The position numbers and the translations under genes were made by a program. A stretch of 41,378 bases of DNA. Origin: a virus. Under the pieces are notes generated by a model. It had not been told where the DNA came from. It did not search any database and saw only the letters and a list, made by a program, of their open reading frames with translations. The stretch spans positions 1 to 41,378 of the IMG/VR virus record IMGVR_UViG_3300013108_000213; one strand, written 5' to 3'. Below, in pieces: positions 2,608 through 34,433 of this stretch (within the stretch, counting starts at the first letter, position 1; each line of letters starts with the position of its first letter).

Positions 2608-2947
2608 GGATAATCAATACTATATACCGAGAGAGACATTTAATGAAATACCGAACTGGAAACCGACATTCAATTACGCACATCCCCCACTATTCACGGA
2701 AGGACATAGATACGAACCAACTGAAGCGATTGAACGTCATATCAAACACAACGATTGGGAGACAGGAATCAAATTTGTGAATGAAGTGTCAGAGTGTGCG
2801 ATAAAGTATAATCATCACCCGAAGATCATTATCAACTACGATATTGTAACGGTGCAATACTATACCCATACAAAATCGTGTACTATTACCAATAAAGACC
2901 TATTCATGGCAAAGAAGATAGATGAGATAGTTGCAAAATATGAATGA
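2567..2947 (+). CDS. Pterin-4a-carbinolamine dehydratase-like protein
   Basis: The C-terminal 70 residues match the pterin-4a-carbinolamine dehydratase (PCD/DCoH) fold: W64 and the helix IKFVNEVSECA, then NHHP (H83, H84, P85), INYDIVTVQYYTHT with T100-H101, and a final helix TNKDLFMAKKIDEI. The spacing HHP...Y..V.....TH is the family signature and contains the catalytic histidines. PCD dehydrates 4a-hydroxytetrahydropterin, recycling tetrahydrobiopterin or other reduced pterins, and can act as a dimerisation cofactor in bacteria and animals. The N-terminal 55 residues are extra and unrecognised. The only good start lies 41 bases inside the preceding gene, with a weak ribosome site. Together with the folate enzyme downstream it suggests phage intervention in pterin/folate chemistry. 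Confidence 0.82.
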   Translation: MIPNNKKPIERGFEDNQYYIPRETFNEIPNWKPTFNYAHPPLFTEGHRYEPTEAIERHIKHNDWETGIKFVNEVSECAIKYNHHPKIIINYDIVTVQYYTHTKSCTITNKDLFMAKKIDEIVAKYE

Positions 2948-5266: not shown

Positions 5267-5453
5267 TCTCAGCTCTTTCTAATAGTTCTCTAGGAGTAGT
5301 GATGTTTTTGCATACGTTACATATTAGGACTTCGTTGGGGATGTCGGCCCTGTATTCTATATCTATTGGTGAGTCCATGAAATTGATATAGTTATGGATT
5401 CCTAATTGACAGCGGCGTTCTTGGAATGATTTGTCGAATATGGATTTCTTCAT
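5247..5453 (-). CDS. Small Cys/His protein, possible zinc-binding
   Basis: A 68-residue acidic protein with CQLGIH in the first third and CNVC in the last third, a spacing compatible with a small zinc ribbon (C-x4-H ... C-x2-C). Start and stop are tightly packed: its ATG overlaps the stop of the MORN-repeat gene (ATGA), and AAGGA lies upstream. No family is recognised. Such small zinc proteins in phages are often host-takeover factors, but nothing here proves that. Confidence 0.65.
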   Translation of the reverse strand: MKKSIFDKSFQERRCQLGIHNYINFMDSPIDIEYRADIPNEVLICNVCKNITTPRELLERAENEHEEC

Positions 5454-5941
5454 GCTATTCTATTTCCTTCATAATAAGTTCTTTGGGTTTGAAGCGATCC
5501 ATCTGGATTGTATATTAAATATTCACCGTGGCGCTTACCGTGTTCATAGGTATAGATGTATTCAAGAGAACCGTCTTTTCTCCAGCTCGTTTGTTTCCCA
5601 TGGCGTTTAGCGTCATGGTAGGATAGAGTATAATGCAATTCTCCATTCGGAAACCAGGCGGTTGAAGTTCCATGGCGTTCACCATTCTTATAGTGCTTCT
5701 CGAATTTTTTAAAACCAGTATCAGGATAATACCCTGTACCTAGTCCATGACGTTCACCGTTGACGTATTCGTATTTCCATTGTAGTTTACCTTCCTCGGA
5801 ATACTCTAGTTGTGTACCATGTTTTTCTTCGTTGAGGAACTGGTATCGGGTTTTGATGTTACCGTTTGGCCAATGGGATTCGTGAAGGGTTAAGGAATCT
5901 TTAAAGCGTTGGTATTGGTGATTTAATATTCTATTCGTCAT
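5450..5941 (-). CDS. MORN-repeat protein
   Basis: The 163 residues are five to six tandem repeats of about 23 residues with the pattern NG..HG....W..G.L......., for example NEEKHGTQLEYSEEGKL, NGERHGLGTGYYPDTG, NGERHGTSTAWFPNGEL and HGKRHGEYLIYNPDGSL. This is the MORN_2 variant found in bacterial YwqK-type proteins. Such repeats form a beta-meander used for lipid or protein binding. It starts within the 3' end of a tiny membrane peptide gene (overlap of 11 bases) and ends on an ATGA overlap. Its function is unknown; partner or membrane binding during early infection is plausible. Confidence 0.85.
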   Translation of the reverse strand: MTNRILNHQYQRFKDSLTLHESHWPNGNIKTRYQFLNEEKHGTQLEYSEEGKLQWKYEYVNGERHGLGTGYYPDTGFKKFEKHYKNGERHGTSTAWFPNGELHYTLSYHDAKRHGKQTSWRKDGSLEYIYTYEHGKRHGEYLIYNPDGSLQTQRTYYEGNRIA

Positions 5942-6041
5942 TGTTATTGTTCCAGTAATCGGTGATAACCCATAGGGTTAGAATAATAAACGGCGTGAGT
6001 TGTAATCCCATTATCAATGTTTCTTTGTATGCATCCATCAT
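5931..6041 (-). CDS. Tiny membrane protein (36 aa)
   Basis: A 36-codon gene with an excellent ribosome site (AAAGGAGAAATT-ATG). The peptide has a short N-terminus, a hydrophobic helix (LTPFIILTLWVI) and a polar tail (NNNNDE). It overlaps the start of the MORN-repeat gene by 11 bases, so the two are probably co-translated. No family is recognised. The strong Shine-Dalgarno and overlap are the main evidence that it is real. Confidence 0.7.
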   Translation of the reverse strand: MMDAYKETLIMGLQLTPFIILTLWVITDYWNNNNDE

Positions 6042-6050
6042 AATTTCTCC

Positions 6051-6418
6051 TTTTAGGGTTAGGCAAAGAATGTACTTATCACAGCAATTATTTACGTTCC
6101 TCAAGGGAACATGGCTCCGAACTCTTATCCTACCCCGAAAGGCAGTTTACTTACCACTAAGATACAGGTCTGCATCTCTGGCGTTTCAACTGAAACCCAT
6201 AGGAGCGCCCAATAGGTTATAGGTTAAGAGAAAACTTCCAGAGGCGGAAGCTATCCACTTACCTCGCTGCTGTACATCCTACTAACGACAATGCCGTGCC
6301 GATCTTATCCCCGATAAGGAATCGCTGTTATTAATCAAATAACTTCTCATCATGTGCGACACACTAGGCGCTGACTAAACGCCACGTCTATTTGAAGCGA
6401 AAACCGAGCGAACAAATC
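6051..6418 (-). ncRNA. Candidate structured RNA or long structured leader, minus strand
   Basis: About 370 bases without a credible gene between a 50-codon ORF and a 36-codon ORF. At least eight hairpins are visible: 6367-6383, 6352-6364, 6304-6318, 6233-6252, 6183-6196, 6160-6177, 6130-6145 and 6096-6110. Five of them contain six positions that are G-U in minus-strand RNA but A-C mismatches in plus-strand RNA; none shows the reverse. The 6130-6145 stem closes a UUCG loop in the minus-strand RNA. The ends (AGGGTT in 6424-6430, AACCCT in 6051-6060) could pair. It lacks a tRNA-like T-arm (GTTCRANYC), group I or II intron core motifs and RNase P landmarks. It could be processed from the early transcript or act as a leader for the genes at 6041 and below. 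Confidence 0.6.
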
Positions 6419-6571
6419 TTATTTCAAACCCTGTTTTACTTTTAGTTTATGTACAGCAAGGTTCACTTCATATTTGTTTGCGATACGCAATCGTTTACGG
6501 TTTGCGTTTCTTTCTACTCTTTTTCGATTTAGTTTCGCCAGACGTTTCCTGACTAGGTTTCTCTTATTCAT
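6419..6571 (-). CDS. Small highly basic protein (50 aa)
   Basis: A 50-residue protein almost half Lys/Arg/Asn in its first 30 residues (MNKRNLVRKRLAKLNRKRV...), followed by a less basic tail. The start has AAAGGAGAGC upstream and shares an ATGA overlap with the preceding stop. Composition suggests nucleic-acid or ribosome binding, but no family is recognised. It is immediately followed by the candidate structured RNA, so an interaction with that RNA is possible but speculative. Confidence 0.7.
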   Translation of the reverse strand: MNKRNLVRKRLAKLNRKRVERNANRKRLRIANKYEVNLAVHKLKVKQGLK

Positions 6572-7830: not shown

Positions 7831-8054
7831 CTTATTAACTCCCAATCAAAGTTTTTATCGTGAAAGCGTTGAATCCAACGCCCGTTTTTAGGATTGTCTA
7901 TCGACTGTAAATCAATCCAATCTTTTCCCTCATCAAACATAACTGTTTCCGAAAACGATTGAACCTTGAAAAGACAGCCATCCCTATGGATGACTTGTTT
8001 CGCCTTTCCAGTTTTCGGATGTAATTTAACTGTATCACCTTCAAGGATTGTCAT
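7827..8054 (-). CDS. Hypothetical small beta-rich protein
   Basis: A 75-residue protein starting MTILEGDTVKLHPKTGKAKQV, a turn-rich start like that of KOW/SH3-type barrels, with later strands (CLFKVQSF, GRWIQRF). It is bracketed by ATGA overlaps on both sides. The SH3-like reading is only an impression from the pattern; no family is firmly recognised. Confidence 0.68.
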   Translation of the reverse strand: MTILEGDTVKLHPKTGKAKQVIHRDGCLFKVQSFSETVMFDEGKDWIDLQSIDNPKNGRWIQRFHDKNFDWELIR

Positions 8055-8257
8055 TTTTCTGCGAGCTCCTTTAATTCTTTAAAGGACATATTATCTACAA
8101 TGTCCATTAGTTCAGCCAGGGTTACAATTTTTCCAGAATAATCTCTCCATGAGATATATCCGTTGGTATAGTTGGGCATACGTTTCATGCCCTGTACCGT
8201 TACCAGTTTATGAACATAACCCATTTGAGTCATCATAGGTGTATAAGAATTATTCAC
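8051..8257 (-). CDS. Hypothetical protein, GTG start
   Basis: A 68-residue protein with a perfect AGGAGG ribosome site seven to eight bases before a GTG start, which settles the start codon. It contains a beta-rich first half (MGYVHKLVTVQGMK) and a helical acidic tail (AELMDIVDNMSFKELKELAEK). It overlaps the upstream small membrane gene and ends on ATGA. No family is recognised. Confidence 0.7.
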   Translation of the reverse strand: MNNSYTPMMTQMGYVHKLVTVQGMKRMPNYTNGYISWRDYSGKIVTLAELMDIVDNMSFKELKELAEK

Positions 8258-8357
8258 TATAGCCTCCTAAATAAAGTACCAATAAAGTTTGAAACAATGC
8301 TCCTGCAAGAGCACAACCGATAAAACTACATATAATAATTTTAAGTGCAGTTAACAT
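8250..8357 (-). CDS. Tiny membrane protein (35 aa)
   Basis: A 35-residue, almost entirely hydrophobic peptide (IIICSFIGCALAGALFQTLLVLYLGG). AGGAGG lies within the end of the preceding gene, nine bases before the ATG, and the two genes share a TAATG overlap. Small-residue spacing (GCALAGA) would favour helix packing. No family is recognised. Confidence 0.7.
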   Translation of the reverse strand: MLTALKIIICSFIGCALAGALFQTLLVLYLGGYSE

Positions 8358-8626
8358 TAGTACATCGCCTCCTTCCGCATCTCCCGCTCATATTCTCTTT
8401 CGAGATACAGTTCCAGATCAGCAACGGTATGAACACCATACTCTGCCCAATGATGAATATCATTAGTCAGCATACCGATAAAAAGATCAGGATTATTATC
8501 CATCTCTTTTTGGGATTCAAGATTGATTGAATCAATATGTTTCACAAGCAGTTCTGCTTGTTCCGCATACCATTCATTAGCGGATTCAATCATATAGTTA
8601 ACGTGTTGTGATTTCATATATCCCAT
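8357..8626 (-). CDS. Hypothetical acidic helical protein
   Basis: An 89-residue acidic, mostly helical protein (MGYMKSQHVNYMIESANEWYAEQ...). The ATG at 8626 is chosen over 8650 because GAGGTG precedes it and it follows the upstream stop by one base. Its 3' end carries the AGGAGG site of the next gene. No family is recognised. Confidence 0.7.
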   Translation of the reverse strand: MGYMKSQHVNYMIESANEWYAEQAELLVKHIDSINLESQKEMDNNPDLFIGMLTNDIHHWAEYGVHTVADLELYLEREYEREMRKEAMY

Positions 8627-32181: not shown

Positions 32182-33033
32182 ATGGGAATCTTCAAAACGA
32201 ATGAGTATGAAGCGTATAATGAACAAACACCAGAACACATACAGTATTGGAAAGATTTAGAACCTGAAGCCGAAGATAAAACCGATCATCCCTTTCATAA
32301 ACACGCAAACATAGATCATAAGTGGACTACACCATTTATGGAAATGGATTCGACACTTCCTGATAAAATCAATAAAGACTTGTGTAAAGTCTTAACTGCA
32401 AAAGAATTATCAATGGAAGATATTAAAACTAAAGAACCTGATTTCCATGATATGGCTAAATCAAAAGGATTTTATGCTACTACGCATTATAATCTTTTTG
32501 ATGATAAAGATATGGATGAATTTCCAAATGAAAAAGAATCTATATTAGCATATGAACAGATTGTTTGTCAACAAATTCGTTATTACATTCGTTATGGATG
32601 GGGAATAAGACAAGCAGATGATATGATTATTGAGGGGAGATGTTTTGGTAATGTACAAAGAGATAGTGAGTTGGGTGGAGCACGAACCTATCCACATTAT
32701 CATCAAGACATTAATGGAGTTGTAGTTACCTATTTAGCGATGGGTGATGAGAATGTTGCATTAGAAGATCAGGTTTTAGTTGGTCAGGAACAATCACCTA
32801 GAAATGGAACACATCAGGTTTTGTTTCAAGACCCAAGACCAGCAATTTCTTATCCTTATTGGGAAAAGGTTTACGCTATTACACCTAGAGTTGGATTAAC
32901 AATAATTCATCCAAACTATTTATGGCATGAAACTAATCCTTGGCTGGGTAAAGGAACAAGAGTTTGTATTGTAACTAACTTTAGAATTATATCACATGGG
33001 TATAACGAACTTCTAAAAACATTCCGAGGTTGA
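32182..33033 (+). CDS. 2OG-Fe(II) oxygenase, paralog of the 29511 gene
   Basis: A 283-residue enzyme. The ATG at 32182 has GGAAGG seven to twelve bases upstream; the earlier ATG precedes a terminator hairpin. Key residues are H172-x-H174 in TYPHYHQDING, then VVTYLAMG, DPRPAISYPYWEKVY, IIHPNYLWHETN with H249 and GTRVCIVTNFRI with R260. All expected Fe(II) and 2OG ligands are present. It is followed two bases later by the radical SAM gene, so the two modification enzymes are probably made together. The substrate is unknown. Confidence 0.85.
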   Translation: MGIFKTNEYEAYNEQTPEHIQYWKDLEPEAEDKTDHPFHKHANIDHKWTTPFMEMDSTLPDKINKDLCKVLTAKELSMEDIKTKEPDFHDMAKSKGFYATTHYNLFDDKDMDEFPNEKESILAYEQIVCQQIRYYIRYGWGIRQADDMIIEGRCFGNVQRDSELGGARTYPHYHQDINGVVVTYLAMGDENVALEDQVLVGQEQSPRNGTHQVLFQDPRPAISYPYWEKVYAITPRVGLTIIHPNYLWHETNPWLGKGTRVCIVTNFRIISHGYNELLKTFRG

Positions 33034-33035
33034 TA

Positions 33036-34433
33036 ATGGCTAAATTTAAATTTTATATGTCAAGTGTAAGAAACGCTGATGAAAATAATAATGATGAATT
33101 TTATATGACTTATGATAATATGACTTCTGAACTACGTCAATCCAATGGTGATATTGTTATACCACAAACTAATTTTATGGATTGGAGTAAACAAGATAGT
33201 TGGGGAATGTCTGCTGGTAAAAGAAATTTAAAAAAGATAAAAATAAGTTTAGGTTTAAAGTGTAATTATTCTTGTGATTATTGTTCACAACGATTTGTAC
33301 CAAGAAATAAAGACGATCATTTGGACACATCCGATATGTATCATATTGGAGATGATGAAGTAGAAGCATATGTTAAGAAGTTTGACAACATATCAATTCA
33401 AGACGAACCACATTTTGAATTATGGGGTGGAGAACCTTTCCTTTATTGGAAAACTCTAAAACCTTTAGTCGAACAACTACATGAGAAATATCCAAAATCT
33501 ACTTATAGTATTATAACAAATGGATCGTTGTTTACAGATGAGATAATTGATTTTATTGAGAAACATGATGTTCGTATATCTATTTCGCATGATGGGCCAG
33601 GACAACCAACTAGAGGGCCAGACCCATTTGATGATCCTGAAAAAGCTAAGATGATTCAAAAATTGAAAAACAAATTAGCACCTCTAGGTCATATATCTTT
33701 TAATAGTATGGTTCACAAATATAATGAGAGTCGTGGTGATATTGCAAAATGGTTTGAAAATAAAGTTGGTATTCTTCCGATAGGTGAGGGTGGTACTGTT
33801 GATGCATATGATGAAGGTGGAAAAAATAATTCTTGGAGTACACCCGAAGAACATATTGAATATAGAAAAAAATCAATTTATGAAATTACCAATCAGAAAG
33901 TATCTAGGTTTAATATACTTTCACAGAAAACAGAAAACTTCATTCAAACTTTGCAATCACAAAGACCCGCTGAAGCATTAAATCAAAAATGTGGTATGGA
34001 TAGTCCTGATACCCTTTCAGTTGATTTAAACGGAACTATTACAACTTGTCAAAATGTTACAGCATCATCATCTAATACAGCGGGGATAAGTCATAACATT
34101 GGTAGTCTTGATAATGGTGATGAAGGTTTAGATAAACTTAAAATTAATGCTGGAACACATTGGTCTGATAGAAAAGATTGTTCTAATTGTCCAGTATTGC
34201 AACTTTGTCAAGGATCATGTTTGTTTCTTGAACCCGATTCAGAGTTATGGGATATATCTTGTAATAATGCTTTTAGTGATAATGTTGTTTGGTTGACTGC
34301 TGCTCTATATCAAATAACAGCACATATGGGAGATGCCAAACTTCTTTATAGAATTGAAGGTGAAACGGAAACACCAGAAGATAGAATAAATATATTTGGT
34401 ATAGAGGAAGCGGTACATGATAACAGTAACTAA
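33036..34433 (+). CDS. Radical SAM enzyme with complete SPASM domain (protein/peptide-modifying type)
   Basis: A 465-residue radical SAM protein. The cluster-binding motif is C76-x3-C80-x2-C83 (CNYSCDYC) and the SAM-contact motif GGEP is at 131-134. The C-terminal region has the canonical seven-cysteine SPASM pattern C319-x13-G-x4-C338, then C382-x2-C385-x5-C391-x3-C395 and C409, which binds two auxiliary [4Fe-4S] clusters. SPASM enzymes include anaerobic sulfatase-maturating enzymes and makers of thioether-bridged peptides, so a ribosomally made protein is the likely substrate. GAGG before the ATG at 33036 fixes the start; the last 17 bases overlap the next fibre gene. A nearby Cys-rich fibre tail (30461) is the best candidate target, by inference. 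Confidence 0.9.
   Translation: MAKFKFYMSSVRNADENNNDEFYMTYDNMTSELRQSNGDIVIPQTNFMDWSKQDSWGMSAGKRNLKKIKISLGLKCNYSCDYCSQRFVPRNKDDHLDTSDMYHIGDDEVEAYVKKFDNISIQDEPHFELWGGEPFLYWKTLKPLVEQLHEKYPKSTYSIITNGSLFTDEIIDFIEKHDVRISISHDGPGQPTRGPDPFDDPEKAKMIQKLKNKLAPLGHISFNSMVHKYNESRGDIAKWFENKVGILPIGEGGTVDAYDEGGKNNSWSTPEEHIEYRKKSIYEITNQKVSRFNILSQKTENFIQTLQSQRPAEALNQKCGMDSPDTLSVDLNGTITTCQNVTASSSNTAGISHNIGSLDNGDEGLDKLKINAGTHWSDRKDCSNCPVLQLCQGSCLFLEPDSELWDISCNNAFSDNVVWLTAALYQITAHMGDAKLLYRIEGETETPEDRINIFGIEEAVHDNSN

Follow-up and report, generated by a model that had tools for sequence, protein, structure and literature searches.

A structured RNA family of T4-like phages with a predicted kissing loop and pseudoknot in its 5′ domain

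Structured RNAs near phage tRNA genes

GOLLD and ROOL are structured RNAs that phages encode near tRNA islands, and the function of both is unknown (PMC12286853). GOLLD consists of a conserved and a variable part, ROOL contains pseudoknots and kissing loops, and phage RNAs from tRNA islands assemble into cages via kissing loops (PMC12286853). The tRNA region of T4 encodes two small stable RNAs of unknown role, RNA C and RNA D (rnaC and rnaD; species 1 and 2) (PMC3014915).

We analyzed a stretch of 41,378 nt from a virus (positions 1 to 41,378 of IMG/VR record IMGVR_UViG_3300013108_000213), called “the window” below. It contains a member of an RNA family that we read as resembling GOLLD, ROOL, and T4 RNAs C and D in setting, and as unrelated to them in sequence and fold. 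About seven lineages of the family share the proximity to tRNA genes with GOLLD (RF02032). In contrast, GOLLD is often longer than 800 nt and ROOL has about 660 nt, compared with ~330 nt for the RNA in the window. At the curated Rfam threshold, GOLLD was found neither in the window nor at the RNA in any scanned locus. ROOL had no gathering-score match, and none up to an E-value of 1 in the related loci L026, L034, L050, and L065. One locus, L051, contains GOLLD (7898-8381) as well as the family RNA (at 1041), i.e. as separate loci. In L051, GOLLD is located together with a tmRNA (5476-5870) within a large tRNA array, and a large array in L136 contains a permuted tmRNA (1312-1686).

In the pRNA of phi29, two loops have mutually complementary sequences, and in the aptamer of purine riboswitches a loop-loop contact joins two neighbouring hairpins. 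The family RNA shares the loop-loop complementarity with the former and the two neighbouring hairpins in a predicted loop-loop contact with the latter. However, phi29 belongs to an unrelated phage group, and neither an Rfam match nor any indication of a packaging role was found. Likewise, the family RNA lacks the enclosing P1 of the purine riboswitch aptamer, its downstream gene is not constant, and Rfam gave no match. Together with GOLLD and ROOL, the family brings the structured RNAs in the vicinity of phage tRNA genes to three classes, to the first two of which it is unrelated; a general need for RNAs of this kind is suggested. What is new is the RNA family; the genomic setting was already known from GOLLD and ROOL.

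Location, coding potential, and distribution

A preliminary description had proposed an undescribed structured RNA on the minus strand at positions 6051-6418, between two tiny genes with ribosome sites. The location was closely reproduced, with an element at 6062-6389 on the minus strand (Table 1), the exact termini being predicted positions. The two neighbours, of 50 and 36 aa, have AAAGGAG-type ribosome sites. The gap contains no open reading frames and interrupts a series of small early genes that are read leftward. The 50-aa gene is present in the two closest relatives only. The window virus is a T4-like phage, and gp25-, gp6-, and gp8-like baseplate genes are located further right. No promoter stands out at the RNA in the window, and the sole terminator-like match in the window is internal. 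Two other genes of the window are mentioned in passing: a 163-aa protein with MORN-like repeats (HGxxxxxxxDG..., seen by eye) is encoded at 5450-5941 on the minus strand, and a radical SAM protein (phrog_1802) is encoded at 33030-34433 on the plus strand amid tail-fibre genes.

Table 1. Positions of the RNA element, its parts, and the adjacent genes in the window
Feature	Position	Strand	Remarks
Upstream gene, 50-aa Lys/Arg-rich protein	6419-6571	-	ORF with ribosome site
Whole structured RNA element	6062-6389	-	R1 match 6322-6388; long-range closing stem and 3′ UUUGCC common to L003, L026, L034
Hairpin A (GGCG/CGCC)	6367-6383	-	15 sequences, 86.7% of cells paired, double changes in 4 of 4 pairs
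Kissing strand UAGUCA in the loop of hairpin A	6372-6377	-	
Hairpin P2 (GUGUG UCG CACAU)	6352-6364	-	100% paired
Predicted pseudoknot, 5′ strand (P2 loop UCG)	6357-6359	-	
Conserved single strand GAUGAGAA	6344-6351	-	near-invariant across alignments A2, A4, A7
Hairpin B (GUUAU/AUAAC, 7-nt loop)	6327-6343	-	97.2% paired, double changes in 5 of 5 pairs
Loop bases UGAUUA of hairpin B, predicted to kiss loop A	6332-6337	-	kissing helix (6 bp), 86.5% of cells paired
Predicted pseudoknot, 3′ strand CGA (partner of P2 loop UCG)	6322-6324	-	97.8% paired
Hairpin C (CUUAUC GGG GAUAAG)	6304-6318	-	AGCC/GGCU instead in L026, L034
Invariant block GGCACGGCAUUGUCGUUAG	6282-6300	-	
Long-range closing stem P5/P6, 5′ strand (GGAUGUAC-AGCAG)	6267-6279	-	paired in four relatives, quite different sequences
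Hairpin D (GAG/CUC outer, GUGGA/UCCGC inner)	6241-6265	-	inner GGGAA/UUCCC, GGAAA/UUUCC in L026, L034
Extra closed module, ~110 nt, closed by CUCUUAACCUA/UAGGAUAAGAG, holds the UUCG hairpin	6122-6230	-	inverted repeat; window virus only
UUCG-loop hairpin (CUGCCU UUCG GGGUAG)	6130-6145	-	
GGAGCCA and hairpin E (GUUCC CUUGA GGAAC)	6096-6118	-	
Closing stem P6/P5, 3′ strand (UUGCUG...GUACAUUC)	6068-6087	-	paired in four relatives
Downstream gene, probable 36-aa membrane peptide	5931-6041	-	ORF with ribosome site

The reported lack of a coding signal was borne out, as the conserved part of the RNA contains no minus-strand ORF of at least 40 aa. On the plus strand, no ORF was found in the block common to the window and L003. 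The reported lack of tRNA and tmRNA landmarks also held, with no match from ARAGORN or Rfam.

The minus strand folds with -111 kcal/mol (z -1.55; 7 of 100 shuffles equally good; z -1.12 in a repeat run), and the plus strand with -81.7 kcal/mol (z -0.12). The z-scores of most relatives are not significant, and folding energy by itself says little for an RNA gene. The hairpins that had been noticed are present, including the one with the UUCG loop, which is closed by U-G. The described polarity of wobble pairs was reproduced as a count (seven G-U among 72 pairs in six helices, no A-C). The conclusion drawn from it, that a minus-strand structure is under selection, is circular in part: once a fold has been picked for a given strand, G-U pairs can be included in it, and A-C pairs are left out by definition. 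In the 5′ domain of the family as a whole, G-U cells outnumber A-C cells by 28 to 7, or by 13 to 7 when one invariant G-U is left out.

A nearby conserved protein was used to retrieve two related contigs, the first of which is a near-identical copy of the window virus. The other, L003, is the closest relative; it is 68-86% identical across the region and includes a 153-nt block at 88% identity that matches the proposed RNA's 5′ half in extent. A conserved 16-mer of this block led to L026 and L034, which have different flanks and the same stem shapes with different bases. Further relatives were found with a pattern consisting of the short hairpin and its flanks, and the last group with relaxed patterns and a covariance model; the pattern matches L053, L056, L057, L061, and L062 were discarded as chance or coding.

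Altogether, the RNA was found in 34 IMG/VR contigs besides the window, i.e. in at least 35 uncultured phage contigs, with one copy per contig among those searched whole. Because a single virus group accounts for thirteen near-identical contigs, the independent sampling amounts to ~11 sequence subfamilies. The element comprises about 330 nt in the window and about 190-260 nt in relatives. Among the longest contigs, a T4-type portal is present in G012, G014, and G015, and gp23 in G018; the smaller contigs are fragments that are uninformative on phage type.

The RNA had no match in Rfam 15 at gathering or relaxed thresholds. BLAST searches of INPHARED and plasmids with the element yielded only chance-level matches of 20-30 nt or matches to neighbouring tRNAs, and a 24-mer query in all 64 variants of the P2 loop had no match in INPHARED. 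In bacterial and archaeal genomes, a strict pattern had no matches and a looser one had four, none with the structure. The covariance model R1 (see below) had only chance-level matches in the complete genomes of 20 phage isolates (among them T4, KVP40, Aeh1, RB69, P-SSM2, HTVC008M, and XacN1), in a scan that used stricter filters above 2 Mb and that a very divergent copy could escape. Weak R1 matches in P-SSM2 and Vibrio nt-1 (E-values 0.6 and 1.8) were taken as chance. With respect to Rfam 15 and the open-access literature, the RNA family is new; an unpublished or paywalled description is possible.

In the loci checked, the RNA has the orientation of most neighbouring genes. The window RNA lies outside any tRNA array. 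In about seven lineages, the RNA is located inside tRNA arrays (L047, L051/52/58, L073, L121/132, L136, L153, and L155). The model match begins directly at or after the 3′ end of a tRNA in L047 and L155, and about five bases separate tRNA and RNA in L136. The assignment to the early region thus applies to the window and is not a general trait, as many relatives are in tRNA arrays. In L003, the RNA is followed at a distance of ~1.1 kb by a tRNA (2870-2943, minus strand), which belongs to a stretch missing from the window.

Fold of the 5′ and 3′ domains

The family has a common 5′ domain of 67 nt with the order ACGNG (with few exceptions), hairpin A, UAG, the short hairpin P2 (GUGUG NNN CACAU), UGAUGAGAA, hairpin B (five pairs and a loop of ~7 nt), AG, and N′N′N′. 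The P2 stem UGUG/CACA is replaced by UGCG/CGCA in L073, and by UAUG/CAUA in L155, L121, and L153. The window scores 78.3 bits with R1, with the window being part of the R1 training set, and five of five helices are present.

The loops of hairpins A and B are complementary across subfamilies, e.g. AAUCC/GGAUU, UAAUU/AAUUA, GACUAC/GUAGUU, and UAGUCA/UGAUUA, which is compatible with a kissing helix. Furthermore, in almost all subfamilies the 3-nt loop of P2 is complementary to the bases directly 3′ of hairpin B. The NNN/N′N′N′ variants differ between subfamilies, i.e. UCG/CGA, CUA/UAG, CCC/GGG, CCA/UGG, CUC/GAG, UCA/UGA, and CCU/AGG; in L073, two of the three positions pair.

R1, from which alignment A4 was derived, is a covariance model that contains three hairpins only, and therefore the kissing loop and the pseudoknot played no part in the alignment; both were tested on the same sequences that had suggested them. 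For the whole structure of 23 pairs, 93.2% of the cells are paired, compared with 75.0% in shuffled and 25-46% in slid alignments, and none of 500 shuffles reached the same value. Double-sided changes are found in 18 of the 23 pairs, versus 10.5 in shuffles. The two tertiary helices alone are 90.3% paired, versus 71.3% after shuffling and 13-51% after sliding the partners by at least one column, and their covariation score is 0.66 versus 0.29. The shuffle control loses the relatedness of the sequences, while the slid control keeps it and agrees with the shuffle result.

A model made from 15 sequences recovered L155 (E-value 9e-11) as well as L121/L132, L153, and L136 (1e-5 to 1e-7) out of sample, with E-values that are rough for covariance models, and the P2 stem of the recovered sequences is changed to UAUG/CAUA. 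A recount with 18 rows, i.e. with L155, L121, and L153 added, gave 90.3% pairing for the kissing loop and the three hairpins together. Individual relatives deviate. The L121 group has a longer P2 with a larger loop and retains a 4-bp loop-loop match (UUGC/GCAA), and the pseudoknot is not visible in this group. L155 retains pseudoknot pairing (UCC/GGA) with a shift of one base. In L003, L026, L047, and L063, one or two kissing pairs are broken in each, and the kissing strands of L051 pair only after a one-base shift.

Taken together, the comparisons show a 5′ domain of the minus-strand RNA with three hairpins, which kissing of loops A and B and a pseudoknot of the P2 loop are predicted to lock in place. 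Judged from the pairing statistics, this knotted fold is strongly protected by evolution. The fold drawn initially included the hairpins and lacked both the kissing loop and the pseudoknot. A covariance model of homologs and an Rfam scan had been proposed as checks: the former supports the stems by the double-sided changes, the latter remained empty, and the undescribed minus-strand RNA is thus supported. The original observation is confirmed by comparative evidence rather than by energy or wobble pairs.

The 3′ domain is conserved only among the window, L003, L026, and L034, which share hairpin C, GGCACGGCAUUGUCGUUAG, P5/P6, hairpin D, and GGAGCCA with hairpin E. Traces of it, i.e. the shorter block form UUGUCGU, are also found in L047, L121, and L153. 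Each of the four retains the pairing of P5/P6 and of hairpin E, although the sequences largely differ. For P5/P6, these are GGAUGUAC/GUACAUUC in the window, GGAAUAUA/UGUAUUCC in L003, CAGUAU/AUACUG in L026, and GAUUCU/AGAAUC in L034. For hairpin E, the versions found elsewhere are ACGUC/GGCGU, GCACU/AGUGC, and GCGUA/UACGC, and the loop C(U/A)UGA is retained.

L003, L026, and L034 lack the extra module of the window virus. The last bases of its UUCG hairpin overlap the stem that closes the module, so that both may compete. L063 and L155, which otherwise belong to different subfamilies, have a common 3′ module (GACAACCAUAACAC...UGGAUAAAU...AGGGUGUU), which ends with a T-run in L063. No similarity was seen among the 3′ parts of the remaining subfamilies. 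The constant part is therefore the 5′ domain, and the rest varies. The alignments show a 3′ domain that is more variable and accepts inserted modules.

Proposed role and alternative explanations

The best overall explanation, to which we assign a probability of about 0.78, is a stand-alone, trans-acting noncoding RNA that forms a new family of T4-like phages. That the element is a stand-alone folded RNA is very likely, and a binding role in trans, with an unspecified partner, has roughly even odds. The RNA would be cut out of transcripts of early genes or tRNA arrays. As its first base follows the 3′ end of a tRNA in L047 and L155, tRNA 3′ processing could generate the 5′ end of the RNA. It would then act in trans as a free folded RNA. 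The two tertiary contacts would bring the invariant UAG and UGAUGAGAA strands together and thereby form a candidate binding surface. Its most likely partner would be a factor of the host that binds RNA or takes part in translation, or one that serves in host defence. T4-like phages have a clearly defined, strongly co-varying RNA family, and its one kissing loop and one pseudoknot make a sharp structural hypothesis, testable by point mutants.

The loops A and B might also kiss between molecules, so that rings or cages would form, as with phi29 pRNA, ROOL, and GOLLD. Covariation does not distinguish pairing in cis from pairing in trans, and kissing-loop cages are known for phage RNAs from tRNA islands (PMC12286853). 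However, hairpins A and B are close neighbours for which a contact within the molecule is easy, a second conserved intermolecular element was not seen, and the RNA is far smaller than ROOL or GOLLD. We regard multimers as possible, albeit rather unlikely.

Somewhat more doubtful is a divergent homology to T4 RNA D, the 5′ half of which would have been lost in T4. The best R1 match in the T4 tRNA region, a suggestive one, is exactly the 5′ end of rnaD (14.1 bits, E-value 0.002), with AUGAGAA and a stem of 5 bp with a 7-nt loop. T4 rnaD directly follows tRNA-Arg, as does the L047 copy of the family RNA, which adjoins tRNA-Arg(UCU). Weak local alignments link rnaD to L073 and to the window, the latter with a p of 0.003 in one of 12 tests. 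In contrast, the AUG is not kept across T4 relatives, in most of which the R1 match at the rnaD 5′ end is weak (8-9 bits), and rnaD contains neither hairpins A and P2 nor the kissing loop and the pseudoknot. The similarity is near noise once multiple testing is counted. A blastn search with T4 rnaD matched 704 phage records, mostly of Escherichia and Shigella phages, and in the loci examined it gave no match on the family RNA.

An equally doubtful extension would combine several of these ideas in an ancient RNA class of the T4-like superfamily. It would be released from phage tRNA transcripts in the manner of a tRNA, contain the compact locked domain, and work with or mimic the translation machinery, possibly as a multimer joined by the A and B loops. 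Its target, bound or titrated, might be a translation factor of the host or a tRNA-attacking host defence, and T4 RNA D would be a stripped remnant of the class.

A role of the element in cis, as a leader or riboswitch of the downstream gene for the small membrane peptide, is quite unlikely. About 20 nt separate the end of the RNA from the start codon of the co-oriented 36-aa gene, and compact pseudoknotted folds are frequent in riboswitches. Control of one gene in cis is unlikely, because the neighbours change between relatives. The RNA is followed by a transaldolase gene in L034, by tRNA genes in L047, L073, L121, L153, and L155, and, in L063, directly by a hairpin and T-run that resemble a terminator; even L003, the closest relative, has a different downstream gene. 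We rejected a riboswitch of the downstream gene as a general role on these grounds. The preferred reading of a stand-alone RNA is compatible with variable neighbours.

A self-cleaving ribozyme is less probable still. Hammerhead ribozymes have the features CUGANGA, stem II, GAAA, and an NUH cleavage site. The family RNA has a compact pseudoknotted domain, near-invariant single strands, and a superficially hammerhead-like string (UGAUGA...GAA). However, the essential C of CUGANGA and stem II are absent, the sequences of L026 and L034 have a changed GA, and no Rfam ribozyme matched, so that the hammerhead was rejected. Lastly, the insignificant energy z-scores would fit a decayed coding region or chance folding, which is practically excluded by stems that co-vary across 15 to 18 divergent sequences in which no shared reading frame was seen.

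The T4 region itself has two further features. T4 rnaC (L091, 1409-1547, minus strand), which was rejected as a homolog because it has no similarity, has a tRNA-like T-arm end (CCGGGUUCGAAUCCCGG) and a start (UCGAUUCGA) and is faintly tmRNA-like. In L106 and L110 (T2 and a T4 relative), small annotated ORFs are located between tRNA-Arg and rnaD, while rnaD adjoins the tRNA in other relatives.
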